This document shows, piece by piece, positions 31,210 through 40,348 of a DNA stretch of 64,000 nucleotides (position 1 is the first letter of the stretch; each line of letters starts with the position of its first letter). The stretch is from positions 558,001-622,000 of the forward strand of contig NZ_JAJCVJ010000001.1 in assembly GCF_020567425.1 (NCBI RefSeq), in the 5' to 3' direction. This DNA comes from Salinirubrum litoreum (GTDB taxonomy: Archaea > Halobacteriota > Halobacteria > Halobacteriales > Haloferacaceae). A program made the position numbers and the translations under genes. The notes beneath the pieces were generated by a model. That model was not told where the DNA came from. It worked only from the letters and a program-made list of their open reading frames with translations, and did no database searches.

Positions 31210-31965
31210 CTACGCCTGGTCTGCGCACGCCGACTCGAACACTTCGCGGTGGAGTGCCGACGACACCGTGTCGGCCAGTCGCTCCAGGTTCACCGTGTCG
31301 TCGCGGTTGTACGACACCAGCGTCTCCAGTGCCGACTCGTCGCCGCGTTCGTACTCCCGCCAGAGGCGCACCGCGTCTCGGCCCGACAGATCTGGCCGGT
31401 CCCGGTCGATGCCGACCTCGCGCTCGATGGCCTTCAGGCCGCCCGACAGCCCGAGTTTCTTGCACGTGTACAGTAAGTCGAGATGTGGCTGGTCGAGCGT
31501 CAGGTCGAACGACTCCTCGAGGAAGGGCGCGTCGAACCGCTTCCCGTTGAACGTCACGAGCAGCGAGGCGTCGGCGACCTGCTCTCGGATCGCACCGGCA
31601 GTCAGGTCGTCCCCCTGCACGAGTGTCGTCGTCTCGTCCGCCCGGTGGAAGCTGACGGTCGTCACCCGGTCGCGGTGGTGGTCCAGCCCGGTCGTCTCGA
31701 TGTCGAAGAAACAGGCGTCGTCCCGGAAGTTCTCGTAGAGTCGCCAGCGTTCGGCGCTCGGAAACTCCCGGTCGAAGAATCGAGCGTCACCGTCGTCGAG
31801 GTGCGGTGCTGCCTCGGCGATGAACGACTCGATCCGGTCGGCGGTGGTCGGGCCGACGACCGAGGGATCGAACTCGTCCCAGTGCGTGACGCCCGCCCGC
31901 CAGAGTTTTCGCTCCGTCGCCTCCCCGACACCCCGAACCGGAATGAAACTGTTCTCGATTCGCAC
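31210..31965 (-). CDS. RNase H-like exonuclease-fold protein (YprB type)
   Basis: N-terminal residues 1-70 contain an HhH-like segment (FIPVRGVGEATERKLWRAGV), then an exonuclease fold: CFFDIETTGLDHHRDRVT carries the DxE catalytic pair, VTFNGKRFDAPFL and YNRDDTVNL the later Asp residues. Similar RNase_H_2 proteins act on DNA or RNA ends. The start is GTG at 31965, chosen because CCTAAAGC on the plus strand (31990-31997) sits 25-32 bases upstream. 251 residues. It is divergent from the SRAP gene, suggesting shared DNA-repair regulation. Confidence 0.82.
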   Translation of the reverse strand: MRIENSFIPVRGVGEATERKLWRAGVTHWDEFDPSVVGPTTADRIESFIAEAAPHLDDGDARFFDREFPSAERWRLYENFRDDACFFDIETTGLDHHRDRVTTVSFHRADETTTLVQGDDLTAGAIREQVADASLLVTFNGKRFDAPFLEESFDLTLDQPHLDLLYTCKKLGLSGGLKAIEREVGIDRDRPDLSGRDAVRLWREYERGDESALETLVSYNRDDTVNLERLADTVSSALHREVFESACADQA

Positions 31966-31989
31966 GTCCGAGAGAGTGGGCGGCGACCA

Positions 31990-31997
31990 CCTAAAGC
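31990..31997 (-). promoter_or_regulatory. TATA-like box of the RNase H-like gene
   Basis: CCTAAAGC (GCTTTAGG on the coding strand) 25-32 bases before the GTG at 31965. It supports that start over frame extensions further upstream. Confidence 0.55.
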
Positions 31998-32098
31998 TCT
32001 CGTCTGCCGACGGTCTCGGTCGGGGACGTCGGTCGGCACGATGACGCGACGCTCGCGTGGTCGGCGCACTCAAGAGGTACCCCGCCCTCACTTCTTGC

Positions 32099-32812
32099 AT
32101 GTGCGGTCGCTACAGCCTGTTCACTCCGCAGGCAGACCTCCGAGCACGGTTCGACGCAGCACCGACCCGACCACTGGAGCCCCGGTACAACTGCGCTCCC
32201 GGACAGGACCTCCCGGTGATCCGTGACGACGCACCCGACGAGATCGACTTCCTCCGGTGGGGGCTGATCCCGTCGTGGGCAGACGACGAGTCGATCGGGA
32301 ACCGACTCATCAACGCCCGGAGTGAGACGGTCCGGGAGAAACGCAGCTTCCGTGACGCCTACGAGTCCCGTCGGTGTCTCGTGCTCGCAGACGGGTTCTA
32401 CGAGTGGGTCCCGAAAGGCGACGGCGGCAAGCAACCGTACCGAGTTGCATTCGAGGACGACCGGCCGTTCGCCATGGCCGGTCTGTGGGAACGCTGGACG
32501 CCACCACAGAAACAGACGGGCCTCGGTGACTTCGGTGACGGTGGTCCCGACCGAGAGGCAGATCCGATCGAGTCGTTCACCGTCGTCACGACCGACCCGA
32601 ACGACCTGATCGCCGACCTCCACGACCGGATGGCGGTAGTGCTCGCCCCCGACGAGGAGGAGACGTGGCTCCACGGCGACCCGAACGAGGTGCACGAACT
32701 GCTCGATCCGTACCCGGACGACGAACTACACACCTACCCCGTCTCGACCCGCGTGAACAGCCCCGCGAACGACGCGCCGGACCTGATCGAGGAAGTCGAA
32801 CTCGCCGGCTGA
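32099..32812 (+). CDS. SRAP-domain (HMCES/YedK-type) DNA-abasic-site shielding protein
   Basis: SRAP proteins form a covalent link through Cys2 with abasic sites in single-stranded DNA. Here MCGRYSLF starts with the needed Met-Cys; PRYNCAPGQ, the INARSETV segment, GFYEW and the His in HDRMAVVL are the other family marks. 237 residues. The ATG at 32099 is the only start that puts Cys at position 2. It is adjacent to, and divergent from, an RNase H-like exonuclease, making a DNA-damage module plausible. It ends 100 bases before the left inverted repeat of the recombinase segment. Confidence 0.92.
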   Translation: MCGRYSLFTPQADLRARFDAAPTRPLEPRYNCAPGQDLPVIRDDAPDEIDFLRWGLIPSWADDESIGNRLINARSETVREKRSFRDAYESRRCLVLADGFYEWVPKGDGGKQPYRVAFEDDRPFAMAGLWERWTPPQKQTGLGDFGDGGPDREADPIESFTVVTTDPNDLIADLHDRMAVVLAPDEEETWLHGDPNEVHELLDPYPDDELHTYPVSTRVNSPANDAPDLIEEVELAG

Positions 32813-32911: not shown

Positions 32912-32939
32912 TTCGATATAGCGACATACGATATACGAG
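32912..32939. repeat. Left 28-bp inverted repeat of recombinase segment
   Basis: Starts TTCGATATAGCGACATACGA; its reverse complement matches 35753-35780 at 27 of 28 positions. It lies 31 bases before a perfect 7-bp hairpin at 32971-32987 (CGACACG/CGTGTCG). CGATATA occurs twice inside the site, 15 bases apart. A 28-bp length is usual for tyrosine-recombinase core sites. Confidence 0.8.
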
Positions 32940-34244
32940 TTCGACATCGAGCAGATCTACTCGGCAATATCGACACGTATCGTGTCGGAGCGAATCCAAC
33001 ACTGTTTCAGCGCGACGAGGAACAGACGCTGTCCCACTGTCTCGGTTCGACGTTCGACGCGTCGCTGGGTTGATTCGTCGTGAGAGCCGCACCACTACAC
33101 GGTTCGACGACACAGATCACTAATCTTCCCTCGGTGTCGGCAGCGCTGGTCGGGCAGTCGGAGCGCCTGCAGTCTCACGACCGGAGAGTCGGCCAGTCGG
33201 TGAGTGGCTCCGCCCGTTCGCGGAGAGTCGTCTCAGTCGAGACGCCGCGACCGGCCGTTCACGAGGCGGATGACTTCAGTCTCCGGTCTGTCGGGTCTGC
33301 CGGAGGCGGACCCTCGGACACCCCGGCTGTGCTGGTCTCGGCGGACTCACTCTCCGTGTGTAGGGCGTCTCGGTGGTGATCCTCGACTCGGACACCGGTA
33401 CCGGCCGGAGCCCGGAGTGCGCTTCGGGGTGTAGCGAGGGTACAGACGGGTCTCACGAGCGAACTACAGCGAGTGCGTTCTCTCCGCCCAGAACGTTCGC
33501 CAGTCTACGGGTCGGCCGAGAGGTAGCGTCACTCCGGCAGTTCGATCGAACCCGGCAGTTCACACGACACGTGCGTCCTGACCGTCCCTACCCGACGAGA
33601 CTGGCTTCGGTCGCTCGAGACGGTCCCCGAGCATGGTGTCGAGAGGGCGAGAGCCCCGGACACAGACCTATCAGGCAGTATGCTCGCAGGTTCTACCGCA
33701 TCACGACGAGAACGCCGTCTGTGGCCGTCTCACGAGTTTCTCCGCGGATTCGTCCTGTGGGCTCTATTGCTCGAGAGCCTTCGAGAGGCCACCCTCGGCG
33801 GCTATTGGTGGTCGTGTGGATCGGTCGGCCGTCGACTCGGGAGACAGCGGTTCGTCACGGGAGACTTCGAGTCACCGAGGTCCCGAGTCACCGAACACTT
33901 CACTGGCAGTGTACCAGAAACCGAGGTCCGGGTGTCGGGAAACTCGTCGGTCGGCGAGTACGACTGTCGTCGCGGGAGCCACGATCGTACCGAATCTCTG
34001 AGACGAAATCTACAGTTCGGTCGGTACGAATCGTGTCGCTCCGTGTCCAACAGTAGTTCGTTTCGTTGCTTCTACGGCGACAATAGTAATCACGTATTGT
34101 AGTGTTACAAGACGAAGTTAGCAGTACTAGATTATAAGATAAGTAGTAAATACGGGGGCAATTCTAGAGTCAGTTTCTACGATAAGTGAGTTTATCGCTA
34201 CTGGTAGGGATACTTTGATGTGGGCGGCGTGAGTCGCCCGAACC
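32940..34244. other. Gene-free interior of the inverted-repeat segment
   Basis: About 1.3 kb with no recognisable gene on either strand; the longest frames are arginine- and serine-rich and lack haloarchaeal acidity. The GC content drops sharply in 34080-34200, where the sequence is rich in A and T (for example ATTATAAGATAAGTAGTAAA near 34132). This is the likely promoter and control zone of the DUF5805-recombinase pair. I see no repeated recombination sites inside it. Confidence 0.5.
34180..34197. promoter_or_regulatory. Palindrome before DUF5805 gene
   Basis: CGATAAGTGAGTTTATCG: 6-base arms and a 6-base spacer, 48-65 bases before the ATG at 34245. The position and symmetry suit an operator for a ribbon-helix-helix dimer, possibly the product of the next gene acting on itself. 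ACTTTGATG at about 34212-34220 is a candidate TATA box. Confidence 0.4.
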
Positions 34245-34643
34245 ATGGAGGAGGACACCGAGCGAACCGCAGTTCGGACCTACGTGCCAGCCTACCAGAA
34301 GGAACGGTGGGCAGCACACGCCGAGGAACTCGACATGAGTCACAGCGAGTTCGTCCGAACGATGGTGCAGGCGGGCCGACGGGATTTCGACCTCGAACCA
34401 CCCGAATCGAGCGGTGGCGAGGAACCCCCTGAACCGCCCTCGAACCCCAGGGGTGACGGCCTCGAAGACCGGGTGCGGACAGTTCTCTCTACAGAGGGCG
34501 TCGTGGGATGGGAGGAACTGCTCGAAGCGGTCTCCGACGATCTCGAAGGGCGACTCGAATCTGCACTGGAGACACTTCAAGACGAGAACGCCGTTCGCTA
34601 CAAACCCCGACAGGGTGGGTACGCGCTGGTGGCCGATGAGTAG
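34245..34643 (+). CDS. DUF5805-like DNA-binding protein
   Basis: 132 residues in two parts. Residues 8-50 (VRTYVPAYQKERWAAHAEEL, then MSHSEFVRTMVQAGRR) form a ribbon-helix-helix-like domain; residues 74-130 (DRVRTVLSTEGVVGWEELLE to YKPRQGGYALV) form a winged helix. A Pro/Glu/Ser linker separates them. It matches my recollection of DUF5805, which accompanies tyrosine recombinases in haloarchaea. The stop overlaps the recombinase start by eight bases, so the two are made together. It is likely a recombination directionality factor, a recombinase accessory protein or a repressor; which one cannot be told from sequence. Confidence 0.78.
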   Translation: MEEDTERTAVRTYVPAYQKERWAAHAEELDMSHSEFVRTMVQAGRRDFDLEPPESSGGEEPPEPPSNPRGDGLEDRVRTVLSTEGVVGWEELLEAVSDDLEGRLESALETLQDENAVRYKPRQGGYALVADE

Positions 34644-35694
34644 CACCTCGACTCCCGACGACGACCTGCAGGACCCGATCAGCTACTTCCTGCAGGACCT
34701 CGTCTACCACGGGAAGACCGAGCGTACTCGGGACGCCTACGAGCGTGCACTCCGTGACTTCGAAGACTTCCTCCGCGATCCGGACCGGAACCCGACCGGT
34801 ACCACGACCGTCGCTGCCGATGCGACCCACCGCCACTGCATGGCGTGGGTGCACGGTCTCCGTGGTCGCGTGGCGTCGAGTACCGTCGCGACCTACGCGG
34901 CCTACCTCCACCGGTTCTACGCCTACATGACACAGGTCGGCGTCTTCGACGCGAACCCGATGACACTCGTGATGGAGGAGATGGACGAGCAGATCGACAC
35001 CGATCCGACGCGACGAGAGCTGTCGGTTCCGGAGATGCGGGGGTTCGTCGGCGACATCCGACACCCACTGGATCGGGCCATCGTCGTCACCCTCCTGAAG
35101 ACGGGGATGCGGGTCGGTGAACTCTGTAACCTCGATCTGCGCGACCTCCGACTGACGGACAGTCCGGTATCAGAGACCTACGAACTCGGCGGGCGAGCAC
35201 AGTTGGACGGAAAGCCCGACTCGCTATACGTTTCGAGCGACCCGGCTCGCGGGGCCGTGACGAACGACGAGGAACGAACCGCCTCGAACAAGCGCAAGCG
35301 CTCGACGGTGATCCCCGTCGACGAGGAACTGAAGTGGACGCTCGAACGGTGGCTGTCGGTACGGCCCGACGCGATTTCGCCCGCAGACCCGCTCTTTCTC
35401 GGAGTCTCGGACCACTGGGGTCGCCGGCTGACGACCAAGTCGGCTCGGCGGATCGTCACACGACACGCGAAGGACGCAGGGTGGCACCGGGCCGGCGGAG
35501 ACGCCAGCGAGAACGTCACACCCCACTACTTCCGGCACTTCTTCACGACTCACCTCCGGGACCGGACCGGTGACCGAGGGATCGTGAAGTATCTCCGCGG
35601 CGACGTGGCCGGAGACATCATCGACACGTACACCCACAACTGGGGCGACAGAGTCCGGGAGACCTACGAGGAGCACATCTACTCGCTGTTGTGA
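34636..35694 (+). CDS. Tyrosine recombinase/integrase (XerC-like)
   Basis: Site-specific recombinase. Residues 12-105 are the SAM-like core-binding domain (DLVYHGKTERTRDAYERALR...). The catalytic domain then shows LLKTGMRVGELCNL with the first Arg, PHYFRHFFTTHL with the His-x2-Arg, and DIIDTYTHNW with the nucleophilic Tyr followed closely by a His. The set R-H-R-Y is complete, so it should be active. 352 residues. The ATG at 34636 overlaps the DUF5805 stop. Its substrate may be the 28-bp inverted repeats on either side. Confidence 0.9.
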   Translation: MSSTSTPDDDLQDPISYFLQDLVYHGKTERTRDAYERALRDFEDFLRDPDRNPTGTTTVAADATHRHCMAWVHGLRGRVASSTVATYAAYLHRFYAYMTQVGVFDANPMTLVMEEMDEQIDTDPTRRELSVPEMRGFVGDIRHPLDRAIVVTLLKTGMRVGELCNLDLRDLRLTDSPVSETYELGGRAQLDGKPDSLYVSSDPARGAVTNDEERTASNKRKRSTVIPVDEELKWTLERWLSVRPDAISPADPLFLGVSDHWGRRLTTKSARRIVTRHAKDAGWHRAGGDASENVTPHYFRHFFTTHLRDRTGDRGIVKYLRGDVAGDIIDTYTHNWGDRVRETYEEHIYSLL

Positions 35695-35752
35695 ACCGGG
35701 GAAACTCGGCGATTTCGTCGAACACGACGCTTCGGCACTGTCGGAAGTGCGT

Positions 35753-35780
35753 CTCGTAAATCGTATGTCGCTATATCGAA
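35753..35780. repeat. Right 28-bp inverted repeat of recombinase segment
   Basis: Starts CTCGTAAATCGTATGTCGCT. It is the inverted partner of 32912-32939 with a single mismatch (A for T at the seventh base). It lies 58 bases after the recombinase stop and 76 bases before the F420-reductase-like gene. I see no duplicated target bases outside the two repeats. Confidence 0.8.
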
Positions 35781-35856: not shown

Positions 35857-36501
35857 ATGACGACGACGATCGGAGTTATCGGGAGCGGAAACATCGGCCG
35901 AACCCTCGCCGAACTGTTCGTAGCGGCAGGCCACGAGGTAGTGATCAGCAACTCCCGTGGCCCGGAGTCGCTCGCCGATCTCGTCGCGGACCTCGGCGAG
36001 CGTGCCTGTGCGGGAACGGTCGCCGAGGCGGCCGAGTGCGGGGAGATCGTCGTGGAGGCGATCCCGTTCGGCGCGTACCGAGAACTCCCTGCCGAGGCAC
36101 TGGCCGGGAAGATCGTCGTCAGTGCGTCGAACTACTATCCGAACCGGGACGGTGAGATCGACTTCGGCGGACTGAGCCAGACCGAACTCGTCGCCGATCA
36201 CCTCGGCGAGAGTCGGATCGTCAAGGCGTTCAACACGATGTACTGGGAGACGCTGCGTGACGAAGGGAGACCGAGCGCGACAGCGTCCGAACGACTCGTC
36301 CTGTTTCTCGCGGGCGACGACCCGGAGGCGAAGGCGGTCGTCAGCGAACTGATCGCAGAGATCGGGTTCGCGCCGATCGACACGGGATCACTCGCCGTCG
36401 GCGGGCGGAAGCAAGAGCCGGGGAGTCCGATCTACAACGAACCGATGACCTCGGACGAAGCACGAGGGCGACTCGCAGCGATGGACGGCGAAGCAGTCTG
36501 A
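35857..36501 (+). CDS. NADPH-dependent F420 reductase-like oxidoreductase
   Basis: Rossmann protein of 214 residues. IGVIGSGNIGRTLAELFVAA at residues 5-24 is the NADP-binding motif, followed by VISNSRGPESL, whose Ser-Arg suits the NADP phosphate. VEAIPFGAYREL and VVSASNYYPNRDG are typical of F420-NADP oxidoreductase-like proteins, and VKAFNTMYW is a further family segment. Some relatives lack F420 activity. The ATG at 35857 starts at the Rossmann strand; AGAATTACG about 30 bases upstream is a likely promoter. It lies just outside the right inverted repeat. Confidence 0.82.
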   Translation: MTTTIGVIGSGNIGRTLAELFVAAGHEVVISNSRGPESLADLVADLGERACAGTVAEAAECGEIVVEAIPFGAYRELPAEALAGKIVVSASNYYPNRDGEIDFGGLSQTELVADHLGESRIVKAFNTMYWETLRDEGRPSATASERLVLFLAGDDPEAKAVVSELIAEIGFAPIDTGSLAVGGRKQEPGSPIYNEPMTSDEARGRLAAMDGEAV

Positions 36502-36535: not shown

Positions 36536-37438
36536 TCAGACGCTGATCGCCGTGTCGAGTTCGGCACCCGCGATCAGATCGGCGATGTGGTCTGCGGTGC
36601 CGTTCGTCTCGGCGCGGTTCTCCATCAGCACCGTCTCGCTCGGGAACAGGTGATCGCCGAGGACGAGTCCGTGATCGCGGGCGGTCGATCCAGTCACGGT
36701 GAGGTAGACACCGAGTCCGGTCCGGGCGATGGCGGCCTCCTCCTCCTCGCCGTTCTCCGGGTACGCGAACGAGACGTCCTCGATGGCACGCGTGCCGAGG
36801 ACCGCCTCGACCAGTCGCTCGTAGCGCGGGGAGATACAGAGGTCGCCCTCGTAGTCGGCGACGAACTCCCGGTCGACGTCCGCGCCCGGCGGGAGAATTT
36901 CGGGTTTCGCCATCAGCGTGTGGTACACCGTGTCGCCGAGTCCCGAGAGGACACGAACGTCGGTGTCGCGGGGGTCGATCCGGGCGTTCACGTCCGCGAG
37001 GTCGCCGACACCCTCCGGCGCGAGCGAGACGACCTCTTCGAGTACGAGGTCGGCGCTGTCGAAGCCGAGGCCGAACTCGTGAGTCCGGAGCGCACGAAAC
37101 GGTTCCTCTCTGCCGACGAGTCGTACGTCGCCGGTCTCCGTCGGGACGGTCACGCTGTCGAAGACGATGCGGCGGGGCATCCCCTCGCGGTCGTCGCGCA
37201 GCAGCGTGAACTCGGGGGCGGCCGGATCGTCGAGGTCGGAGTAGTCCGCGAGTCGGCTGTACGCGTCGAGGTCCGGATGTTTCGTCCCCTTCGTGACGGC
37301 CTTCTCGTAGCGGAGCGTCGAGGTGATCTGGTCGGCGACGGCTGCGACACCGTCGGAGCCGGTGGCGTCCGCGAGTCGTTCGAGTACGGCTTCGAGGGGT
37401 CTGCCCTTTCGGGGGACAGCGATCCGGACCTCTGTCAT
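36536..37438 (-). CDS. HisG-like (ATP-phosphoribosyltransferase-fold) protein
   Basis: The start MTEVRIAVPRKGRPLEAVLE resembles the HisG opening, and the later segment LGVYLTVTGSTARDHGLVLG resembles the TGxTLRxNGL phosphate-binding loop. The middle (DADLVLEEVVSL-type region, VLSGLGDTVYHTLMAK) does not match HisG proper. So it is probably a divergent relative using the type II periplasmic-binding fold, not the histidine pathway enzyme itself; true HisG would be expected elsewhere in the genome. 300 residues. Convergent with the F420-reductase-like gene, 34 bases apart. Its ligand or reaction is unknown. Confidence 0.55.
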   Translation of the reverse strand: MTEVRIAVPRKGRPLEAVLERLADATGSDGVAAVADQITSTLRYEKAVTKGTKHPDLDAYSRLADYSDLDDPAAPEFTLLRDDREGMPRRIVFDSVTVPTETGDVRLVGREEPFRALRTHEFGLGFDSADLVLEEVVSLAPEGVGDLADVNARIDPRDTDVRVLSGLGDTVYHTLMAKPEILPPGADVDREFVADYEGDLCISPRYERLVEAVLGTRAIEDVSFAYPENGEEEEAAIARTGLGVYLTVTGSTARDHGLVLGDHLFPSETVLMENRAETNGTADHIADLIAGAELDTAISV

Positions 37439-37790: not shown

Positions 37791-40316
37791 TCAGTTCGCG
37801 CCGAACACGTCGCTCAGACGGTCGCGGAACTGCTCGGCCTGTTCGAGTTCCTCGTGAATCTCGTCGAGTTCGGCCTCCAGGTCCGCGACTTCCTCGTCCA
37901 GATCCTCTTCGACGGCGGCGACTGCGGCGTCAACCTCGGCGATGTCGTTGCGCACGTCGCCCATCTCCTCGTCCAGCGACTCGACGCGTCCGGACACGTC
38001 CTCGACACGCGCGTCGGTCTCCTCGGCGTTCTCTTCGAGGTACTCCAGCCAGTCGGTGTGGTCGCTCAGCGTCTCGCGGGCCTCGGCCACGCCCGCTTCG
38101 GTCTCCTCGGTCCGCGAACCGAGGTCGTCGACGCGTGCTTCGGTCTCGGTGACTCTCCCCTCGACGCTCGCCACGTCCTCGGCGACGTCCGCGAGGTCCT
38201 CGTCGGTCTCCGCGAGGTCCCGTTCGACCTCCTCGACGGTCGACTCGACCGCCTCCACGTCACCCGCGACCGAGTCCACGTCGTCGGCGATCTCGGCGCG
38301 TTCCTCGCTCGCGGTCTCGACGGTCTCCTCCAGTGACTCGACGGTGTCGCTCACGTCGGCGACCTCCGCGCGGAACTCCTCGATGAGTTCCTGTCCGGTG
38401 CCCTCCTCGTCGATGAACTCCGAGAGCGCGTCGGAGTACGCGTCGAGGTCGTCGACCTGCGACTGGAGGCGGCGGATGCGCACGTCCACGCTCCGCGGGA
38501 CGCCGCCGACGTCGAGTTCCTCTTTCAACAGGTCGAGGTCCTCGTCGTCCACGTCGCCAGATCGAATCTCGTCGGCGAGCGCGCCCGCGATGCCGCCCGC
38601 CGCGACCGCCGCTGCGGGTTCGGCTTCGACAGCTTCGGCTTCTGGTTCGGCTTCGGCTTCTGGTTCGGCTTCGGCTCCCGGTTCGGCCCCGACGGTGTCC
38701 GCCTCAGCATCGTCGGCGTCGACCGCCTCGGGGTCTGCCTCCGGCGTGACGGCCGCGTCCGCCGCCTCGTCGGCGTACTCCTCGGTCGCCTCCGCGTCAG
38801 CAGCTTCGGGTTCCTCCTCTGCGACTGCTGCTGGTTCTGCTGGTTCTGCGTCGGCCTCGACCGCGTCCGCGTCCGCTTCGACTGCCCCGGATTCCGCGTC
38901 GGCCGCTTCCACGTCGGCCGACTCGGCCTCGACTCGTTCGGTCAGATCGAGTGCCCCGGCGTCTTCGGGTCGCGTGGAGACGGCCGGCGTGGTCTCGTCG
39001 TCCATCGCGCGTGGTTCCGGTGCCGGTTCTGGCTCGTCGGCCACGTCTGCCTCCCCAGGTGCGTCGGCCGCCCCTGCCTCGGCCGCCTCCGCCTCGACTG
39101 CTTCTGCCGGGTCCTCTGCGGGCTCCGCGTCCGCCTCGACCTCGTCGACCGCGTCGGCATCCGCTTCGACCGCGTCGGCTGGTTCTGCCGCCACAGACTC
39201 GTCGGCCTCGACGGCGTCGTCGTCCTCGCCACCCAGCGCGATGGGTTCCTCCTCCGCGTCGTCGACGTCGGCGGTCGCCTCGTCGCCGTCGAGGGCGATC
39301 GGCTCCTCCTCGGAGTCGTCGCCGAGGTCGAGTTCCGCCGGCTCCTCGTCCTCCGTGTCGGTCTCGGACGGGTCGTCCAAGCTGAGGTCGTCGTCGGCGT
39401 CGTCGCTGGCGTCGTCGAGCCCGCCGCCGAGGTCCAGTTCCGCCGCTTCCTCCTCGCTCTCGTCGCTCGGATCGTCCAGCGTGAAGTCGTCGTCAGCGTC
39501 CGCGTCCTCGCCGTCGTCGTCGAGTCCGCCGCCGAGATCCAGTTCCGCCGGCTCGTCGTCCGCGTCGTCGGTCGGATCGTCCAAGCTGAAGTCCTCGTCG
39601 GTGTCTTCGCCACCGTCGTCGAGTCCACCGCCGAGGTCGAGCTCCGCCTCCTCCTCGCTCTCGTCGCTCGGATCGTCCAGCGTGAAGTCGTCGCCAGTGT
39701 CGTCGGCGTCGTCGAGTCCGCCGCCGAGATCCAGTTCCGCCGGTTCGTCGTCTGCGTCGTCTGTGGGGTCGTCCAAGGTGAAGTCGCCTCCTGCGTCGCC
39801 AGTTTCCTCCTCGAGTCCGCCGCCGAGGTCCAGTTCCTCGGCTTCCTCGTCCGTCTCGTCCAGTCCGGGCATGTCGCCGTCGTCCGCGAGGGCGTCGCGG
39901 ACGACCTGGTTGTTGTCGTCCCCGATGATGTCCTCGATGGACTCGCCGTCGGGCGCGACGACCTCCGCGACGCTCGGTTCGTGGAGGAACGCGCGCGCCT
40001 CGTCCGGGTCGTCGATCCGGATACCGTACACGGTGACGACCTCCTCGCCGGCGTCGAGGGTGCGCTCGTACTCGACGCGGTTGTCCTTGTAGGCGGTCCA
40101 GTTGTCGCTCTCGTAGTCCGGGTGGAAGCCGACACCGTCCATCGGGAACTCCGTCGGAATCTCGTCTGTCAGTCGCACGTCGACCGGCTCCGTCGCCGAG
40201 GACGAGACGACGAACTTGATCGCGGGCACGGGGAACTCCTCCGCCGCGAAGGACTTCTCCACGCTGATGCCACGGTCCCTGACCGTGACCGACTCGTCGA
40301 GGTCTGGCCTGCTCAT
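37791..40316 (-). CDS. Large acidic tandem-repeat and coiled-coil protein, unknown function
   Basis: 841 residues. Residues 1-150 form a globular domain (VPAIKFVVSSSATEPVDVRL) I do not recognise. Residues 161-330 hold about five acidic repeats of 31-35 residues built on ELDLGGGLDD...DFTLDDPSD; two spacer types (DPTDDADDEPA and DPSDESEEEA) alternate in the first four. Residues 340-575 are Ala/Glu/Asp/Pro-rich and disordered. Residues 610-835 are a long heptad-rich coiled coil (for example VDDLGSRTEETEAGVAEARE). No signal peptide or membrane helix, so it is cytosolic and probably a scaffold or chromosome-linked protein. The ATG at 40316 follows an ACATAAAAC box. Confidence 0.82.
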   Translation of the reverse strand: MSRPDLDESVTVRDRGISVEKSFAAEEFPVPAIKFVVSSSATEPVDVRLTDEIPTEFPMDGVGFHPDYESDNWTAYKDNRVEYERTLDAGEEVVTVYGIRIDDPDEARAFLHEPSVAEVVAPDGESIEDIIGDDNNQVVRDALADDGDMPGLDETDEEAEELDLGGGLEEETGDAGGDFTLDDPTDDADDEPAELDLGGGLDDADDTGDDFTLDDPSDESEEEAELDLGGGLDDGGEDTDEDFSLDDPTDDADDEPAELDLGGGLDDDGEDADADDDFTLDDPSDESEEEAAELDLGGGLDDASDDADDDLSLDDPSETDTEDEEPAELDLGDDSEEEPIALDGDEATADVDDAEEEPIALGGEDDDAVEADESVAAEPADAVEADADAVDEVEADAEPAEDPAEAVEAEAAEAGAADAPGEADVADEPEPAPEPRAMDDETTPAVSTRPEDAGALDLTERVEAESADVEAADAESGAVEADADAVEADAEPAEPAAVAEEEPEAADAEATEEYADEAADAAVTPEADPEAVDADDAEADTVGAEPGAEAEPEAEAEPEAEAVEAEPAAAVAAGGIAGALADEIRSGDVDDEDLDLLKEELDVGGVPRSVDVRIRRLQSQVDDLDAYSDALSEFIDEEGTGQELIEEFRAEVADVSDTVESLEETVETASEERAEIADDVDSVAGDVEAVESTVEEVERDLAETDEDLADVAEDVASVEGRVTETEARVDDLGSRTEETEAGVAEARETLSDHTDWLEYLEENAEETDARVEDVSGRVESLDEEMGDVRNDIAEVDAAVAAVEEDLDEEVADLEAELDEIHEELEQAEQFRDRLSDVFGAN

Positions 40317-40339
40317 GTGAACCACATCCCGTACCCGAC

Positions 40340-40348
40340 ACATAAAAC
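40340..40348 (-). promoter_or_regulatory. TATA-like box of the coiled-coil gene
   Basis: ACATAAAAC (GTTTTATGT on the coding strand) lies 24-32 bases before the ATG at 40316. It marks that ATG as the start and shows a leaderless transcript. The rest of the gap to 40551 holds nothing recognisable. Confidence 0.6.

Follow-up and report, generated by a model that had tools for sequence, protein, structure and literature searches.

The window analysed here, a 64-kb stretch of the genome of the haloarchaeon Salinirubrum litoreum, carries a gene for a Xer-type tyrosine recombinase (xer) preceded by a gene for a DUF5805 protein, and both lie between inverted copies of a 28-bp sequence (Table 1). The copies match at 27/28 positions (96% complementary) with 2,813 nt between the arms, and a repeat search gave this 28-nt pair as the longest near-perfect inverted repeat in a 6-kb stretch. 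A scan of the whole window allowing up to 3 mismatches recovered these two copies only, compared with a mean of 0.00 in 100 dinucleotide shuffles. Both sites point towards xer: the left one lies 1.3 kb upstream of the DUF5805 gene and the right one starts 59 bp past the xer stop codon. The DUF5805 and xer open reading frames (ORFs) share 5 bases, at the end of the first and the start of the second. A first-pass annotation of this DNA had described the inverted 28-mers with one mismatch, a DUF5805-like gene, an intact tyrosine recombinase and about 1.3 kb of gene-free sequence, and ORFs and Pfam matches bear out these contents. A second copy of xer or of the DUF5805 gene was sought in the gene-free stretch and no remnant was found; a search of the window gave no transfer RNA (tRNA) gene, and no target duplication was seen by eye at the segment ends within it. 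BLAST of the window's own genome returned no further 28-mer. The only match was an unrelated one of 36 bp and 92% identity, between window positions 35706-35741 and another contig (G000 C4:55018-55053), in a coding-looking stretch and likely a chance similarity.

Table 1. Features of the xer segment and its neighbourhood, in window coordinates.
Feature	Position	Strand	Remarks
Left dif-like 28-bp site (far site)	32912..32939	+	TTCGATATAGC-GACATAC-GATATACGAG; 42.3 bits with the site matrix
Right dif-like 28-bp site (near site)	35753..35780	-	TTCGATATAGC-GACATAC-GATTTACGAG; 44.7 bits with the site matrix
Xer-type tyrosine recombinase, 351 aa	34639..35694	+	Phage_integrase 59.4 bits, SAM-like N domain; intact
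DUF5805 protein, 132 aa	34245..34643	+	Pfam 92 bits, cut-off 28.5
Stretch without convincing gene, ~1.3 kb	32940..34244		AT-rich immediately 5' of the DUF5805 gene
Flank marker A: SRAP (SOS-response associated peptidase) gene	32099..32812	+	outside the segment
Flank marker A: RNaseH_2 exonuclease-like gene	31210..32100	-	outside the segment
Flank marker B: 300-aa protein, weak HisG match	36536..37438	-	outside the segment
Flank marker B: 850-aa acidic protein, SMC-like coiled-coil end	37791..40343	-	outside the segment
F420_oxidored-domain gene adjoining the right site	35857..36501	+	lineage-specific neighbour, outside the system

A protein search across 60 haloarchaeal genomes found a match to xer in 57 and an orthologue in 56, the window's own genome included, with identities of about 43-74% among the relatives. 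The best curated model is XerA_Arch, whose score of 106 bits lies below the model's cut-off of 220 bits. The solved structures that match both by sequence and by fold are XerA (5hxy) and an archaeal Xer (4a8e), the fold comparison being made with an AlphaFold2 model of mean predicted local distance difference test score (pLDDT) 84. R157, K217, H295, R298 and Y330 (the initial Met not being counted), at catalytic positions of the family, are invariant in 19/19 aligned sequences. So is Asp321, which aligns with the His of the GH motif in 5hxy, the His-III/Trp position. The recombinase is a chromosomal XerA/C/D-type enzyme found almost throughout the clade, and not a mobile integrase. We rejected an integrating element or transposon, since orthologues of the recombinase occur in nearly all genomes, mostly in synteny, and its own genome has a single copy; the site-specific integrating unit suggested in the first-pass annotation is likewise not supported. 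Besides its chromosomal copy (L134), Halomarina halobia has another xer module, complete with its two sites, on the plasmid unnamed1 (1.16 Mb; L144), perhaps reflecting one Xer/dif module per large replicon.

The 28-mers have degenerate relatives at xer throughout Halobacteria. To find them we used a site matrix trained on xer flanks, with orientation unused in the training and with rio2 and nifU excluded from it, and we scanned the 56 orthologous loci and a set of named loci (the best 80 of 290) that overlaps with them, together 136 loci. A '+' site upstream with a '-' site downstream of xer was found in 50/56 and 72/80 loci, respectively, and relatives of the 28-mer bracket xer in 122/136 loci of the two partly overlapping sets; since the matrix was trained on xer flanks, this count of pairs is partly built in. 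The sites face xer in 114/117 cases in the first set and 189/190 in the named set, and the extra sites that lie outside the nearest ones do so as well (37/38 and 11/12). There are usually two or three sites near xer. The near site lies within 160 bp of the xer stop codon in 42/50 loci (median 59), and the far site lies 0.8-5.5 kb 5' of the xer start with no fixed spacing. The background of the matrix is low, with 5 matches above 18 bits in 542,528 bp. The 284 distinct sites have a consensus of about TTyrrTATAGC-GAyATAy-rrTTTAyrnG, with conserved RTATAGC and TTTA arms and a variable centre, and their best dyad (i+j=30) implies arms of about 10-11 bp around a 7-bp centre. In size and anatomy they fit the core sites of tyrosine recombinases, as the first-pass annotation had supposed, and they are associated with one. 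The pair is retained in 38/48 loci with other or unseen flanks; by this comparison the sites travel with xer.

Two observations concern sites at other distances or on other replicons. Halorubrum loci (e.g. L135) have a third site, some 4.7 kb upstream, which runs in the same direction as the far site and encloses both B-flank genes (HisG-like and the family of the acidic 850-aa protein). Three viral contigs (L288, L291 and L293), the only GC-rich ones among 24 that matched a strict pattern, each carry a single site of 31-38 bits and may represent viruses or plasmids exploiting the Xer of their host.

For 18 of 20 genomes we then divided the distance between xer and a conserved orc1/cdc6 gene by half the chromosome length; two genomes with a split chromosome were left out, and in one with two such orc1 genes (G059) the first listed was used. 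The mean was 0.88 and the minimum 0.64, with values of at least 0.8 in 14/18 chromosomes. The same measure gave means of 0.39 for rio2 (18 chromosomes) and 0.17 for nifU (17 chromosomes), which served as control genes. A position opposite orc1 is expected of a dif locus and unexpected of an integrase.

The first-pass annotation had proposed that the segment flips. We judged the orientation of the segment from the flank marker proteins A and B, because an automatic ORF caller gave many antisense ORFs in this GC-rich DNA. Relative to the flanks the segment is AB in 42 loci, BA in 46 and undetermined in 48, so that xer stands in one of two syntenic orientations in 88/136 loci. Orientation was uniform in all matched flanks within Haloferax (12 species), Halorubrum (16), Halobellus (5) and Haladaptatus (5), in comparisons in which a number of pairs gave no flank alignment; one Halorubrum pair showed an additional reversed block next to same-sense matches. 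On the xer tree, from which two loci (L071 and L086) were left out as too short, orientation changes 5-6 times in 56 rows, at least two of these changes being forced by well-supported branches, and none of 200 bootstrap trees groups all loci of either orientation into a single clade.

Strand exchange by tyrosine recombinases requires matching centres, and differing ones should block inversion. Among 115 distinct pairs at xer, the central 7 bp of the two sites (positions 12-18) are identical in 4 and differ in 111. The two centres of one genome resemble each other slightly more than centres of different genomes do (z 3.9; 115 pairs), a likeness that may be partly base composition. The window's pair has identical centres and, with 27/28 over the site, the highest similarity of all 115 pairs; its genome is therefore the best place to look for live inversion, which on this comparison would be chemically most plausible there.

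An inversion separates Halorussus litoreus from H. halobius, where both flanks are swapped. The outer alignments stop about 30 to 260 bp from the sites, and inside the segment homology starts only near DUF5805. Two recombinase types are present at the same locus in Halorussus. Halorussus ruber (L121 7800-11050) has two divergent duf5805-xer copies between its sites. Copy 1 has a weak site after its stop codon; copy 2 carries a frameshift, and of its DUF5805 only the C-terminal part was found. An idea drawn from this species, of ancient divergent twin recombinases with reciprocal loss, was rejected for the tree loci and may still hold for the deep past. Profile searches up to 8 kb upstream of xer in these loci found remnants in H. 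ruber only, plus a second same-strand xer-like match in one other locus (L083).

Read from these alignments and trees, segment inversions or module replacements do occur, rarely. A fast genetic switch is unlikely, because orientation is constant in four genera, the centres differ in 111/115 pairs and the F420_oxidored-domain gene adjoins the segment in 1/136 loci, that of the window's genome. The flipping proposed at first stands insofar as both orientations exist across genera and the Halorussus litoreus/H. halobius breakpoints lie at the sites; it does not stand as frequent flipping. The F420 gene does lie 76 bases past the right repeat in this genome, as was stated, but not elsewhere, and its control by a switch finds no support. 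As a general reading, a fast switch acting on this gene was rejected on the uniform orientation, the few changes on the tree, the differing centres and the unique neighbour.

DUF5805 lies immediately 5' of xer in 56/56 loci. A structure model of the protein shows two N-terminal helices and a C-terminal winged-helix fold; a fold search gave no match in PDB at E<=0.001, with weak winged-helix matches only, and the N-terminal part may resemble ribbon-helix-helix proteins. DUF5805 is probably a DNA-binding helper of the recombinase.

Pairs of related sites also occur at genes other than xer. With a covariance model we found, among the matches listed for 20 genomes, many other sites forming inward pairs 0.3-5 kb apart, and four of the first-inspected pairs enclose a gene that we take, from its sequence, to encode a RIO2-type kinase (rio2). 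We scanned rio2 and nifU in 30 of the 60 genomes each. The 30 rio2 loci together have 39 sites, of which 36 point inward, and 15/30 have a pair; a pair surrounds nifU in 4/30 loci and lies adjacent in 4 more. In many loci about 53-57 bp separate the end of the rio2 5' site from the start codon, with the TTTTA promoter lying downstream of the site. The genes upstream of rio2, presumably for endonuclease IV and lipoate ligase to judge from their sequences, are on the same side in 15/15 of the regions that show them (20 regions), so that rio2 has not been seen to flip; in one region the neighbours' own order and strands are reversed. The recombinase presumed to act at the xer sites may bind the rio2 and nifU pairs as well.

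We interpret the locus, with a probability of about 0.6, as the chromosomal Xer/dif-type locus of Halobacteria, placed at the replication terminus and arranged like a dif module. An XerA-like recombinase and its DUF5805 partner would be encoded between two inward 28-bp core sites in the terminus region and would bind them. After an odd number of crossovers each site would undergo strand exchange with the identical site of the sister or dimer chromosome, which would resolve the dimer. The near and far sites of one chromosome would normally not recombine, because their central 7 bp differ, and the segment would invert rarely, on an evolutionary scale; in the window's genome, where the centres match, occasional inversion would be possible. 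The segment would then be a dif module that carries the recombinase itself, and the strict inward rule may be explained if a site facing the other way could delete xer by exchange with its partner.

Several points weigh against such a locus. A dif site is normally single per chromosome, and the covariance model gave 5-15 site matches per genome at E<=1 among the matches listed for the 20 genomes (11 related sites, on the same count, in the window's own). Dimer resolution does not account for the multiple sites at xer or for the inward pairs at rio2, nifU and other genes. The invariant Asp at the His-III/Trp position could, from the alignment, mean altered chemistry. The orc1 family used in the position test was chosen as reference by us, contigs were taken as complete, and the p of 2.9e-8 overstates independence because the 18 chromosomes are related. 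Finally, Haloferax volcanii has 12 xerC/D-like genes, one of which may be the orthologue of the window's xer, and four deletions left viability unaffected according to the available text of a 2020 replication review (PMC7776575).

Among the rival explanations, a self-inverting switch, in which the recombinase flips the segment often and alters the expression of its neighbours, draws on the window's own sites, with their 27/28 match and identical centres, and on the two orientations across genera with the Halorussus breakpoints at the sites. We nevertheless regard it as very unlikely, given that no flip was seen inside any of the four genera compared (Haloferax, Halorubrum, Halobellus and Haladaptatus), that the xer tree calls for just 5-6 changes, that centres differ in nearly all pairs and that the F420 neighbour was found once in 136 loci. 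Known invertible segments with their own tyrosine recombinase (phiCh1 and Ureaplasma XerC) are alike in having inverted core sites around or near the recombinase gene and possible inversion, but the haloarchaeal segment differs from them in its constant orientation within genera, its mismatched centres and the lack of a conserved controlled gene. The inverted placement around genes could also reflect an RNA processing stem in which the 5' and 3' ends of a transcript pair. This is extremely improbable and was rejected: mismatches between partner sites are G.U-incompatible in 270 cases and compatible in 268 (115 xer pairs), and an Rfam scan found no family at the pairs and one tRNA in 12 loci, outside the pair.

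We hold two further explanations to be unlikely, to a similar degree. One is that the inward sites mark the ends of a cassette, mobile in the manner of Acinetobacter p-dif modules, which has xer, rio2 or other genes inside and is moved, replaced or inverted by Xer. The dif-module anatomy, with C/D and D/C sites and differing centres, resembles those modules as far as the available text of PMC12907356 describes them, the xer module occurs in differing contexts (other or unseen in 48/136 loci) and on plasmid L144, and Halorussus has two xer types at one locus, with both present and one broken in H. ruber. Yet xer keeps to one of two syntenic orientations in 88/136 loci and the upstream neighbours of rio2 stay on one side of it in 15/15 regions; no recent transfer was seen among the loci, nor any empty site, for which no dedicated search was made. 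The other explanation has the 28-mers as pairs of regulatory operators that bind Xer, DUF5805 or another factor and form a loop or boundary around a gene, with no recombination. It makes matching centres unnecessary, and it gains from the position of the 5' site of rio2 before the start codon and promoter in many loci, from the fact that rio2 inversion was not seen and from the predicted winged-helix end of DUF5805. Against it stand the far site of xer, at no fixed distance, the near site behind the gene, the inversion of xer at its sites in Halorussus, and a site anatomy and terminus position that fit Xer/dif.

The Xer/dif-type locus proposed here can be compared with known systems, as far as the available text of the cited papers goes. 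Archaeal XerA/dif of Pyrococcus and Sulfolobus (Cortez et al. 2010, PMC2958812) shares with it a single Xer-type recombinase, a two-arm site of about 28 bp with a short centre, and, as in Thermococcales, a position at the terminus; Sulfolobales have the site near xerA, with two copies at one place in S. solfataricus. The haloarchaeal locus differs in its two or three sites, nearly always gene-facing, in the DUF5805 partner, in a dyad that fits a 7-bp and not a 6-bp centre, in the Asp at the His-III/Trp position and in the further inward pairs at other core genes. A term search of the available text of PMC2958812 found no words beginning 'halo' or 'halobacteri'. In XerS/difSL and XerH/difH (PMC2731167) the recombinase gene and the site are likewise genetically linked as one module; these have one dif site, and the haloarchaeal locus adds a second, inverted site across the gene. 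The dif/pdif modules of Acinetobacter (PMC12907356) also hold genes between oppositely oriented 28-bp Xer sites with differing centres, but these are accessory genes shared between plasmids and chromosomes at >99% identity, whereas the haloarchaeal module holds the recombinase itself, class-wide, and a further pair surrounds rio2, a core gene whose neighbours are conserved.

In the literature that our search covered, in part, no paper was found on a dif site or on paired inward Xer sites in Halobacteria, nor any mention of DUF5805. The available text of the 2020 review describes the role of XerC/D-like proteins in H. volcanii as still to be determined, with the many homologues merely suggesting dif sites (PMC7776575). 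A near-universal recombinase, candidate sites and a candidate partner can now be named, so that dimer resolution without FtsK in polyploid haloarchaea becomes directly testable; the arrangement is kept across the group and bears on chromosome separation in these organisms.

A broader proposal, possible if doubtful, is that Halobacteria have genome-wide inward Xer sites with mismatched centres around core genes (xer, rio2, the nifU neighbourhood and others), used as anchors or for cassette exchange. As anchors, partner sites would synapse without completing exchange and so hold a loop or boundary. For cassette exchange, a site would exchange only with its own sister copy, and cassettes would be swapped among the chromosome copies of a polyploid cell. 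Inward mismatched pairs around core genes such as rio2 were not found described in the part of the literature covered, and either use, if true, would be new for a Xer recombinase. The window's own genome has a RIO2-type kinase gene inside an inward pair of the 28-bp motif (G000 C1:1527925-1529063; L171 5925-7063), and two more inward pairs (C2:1092819-1093426, L172; C2:249382-250323, L170), one beside genes for a nifU-like and a conserved small protein and one around a small zinc-ribbon-like ORF. In another genome an inward pair (L187 5948-6326; G046 C2) lies at the start of a different, phage-type tyrosine recombinase gene.

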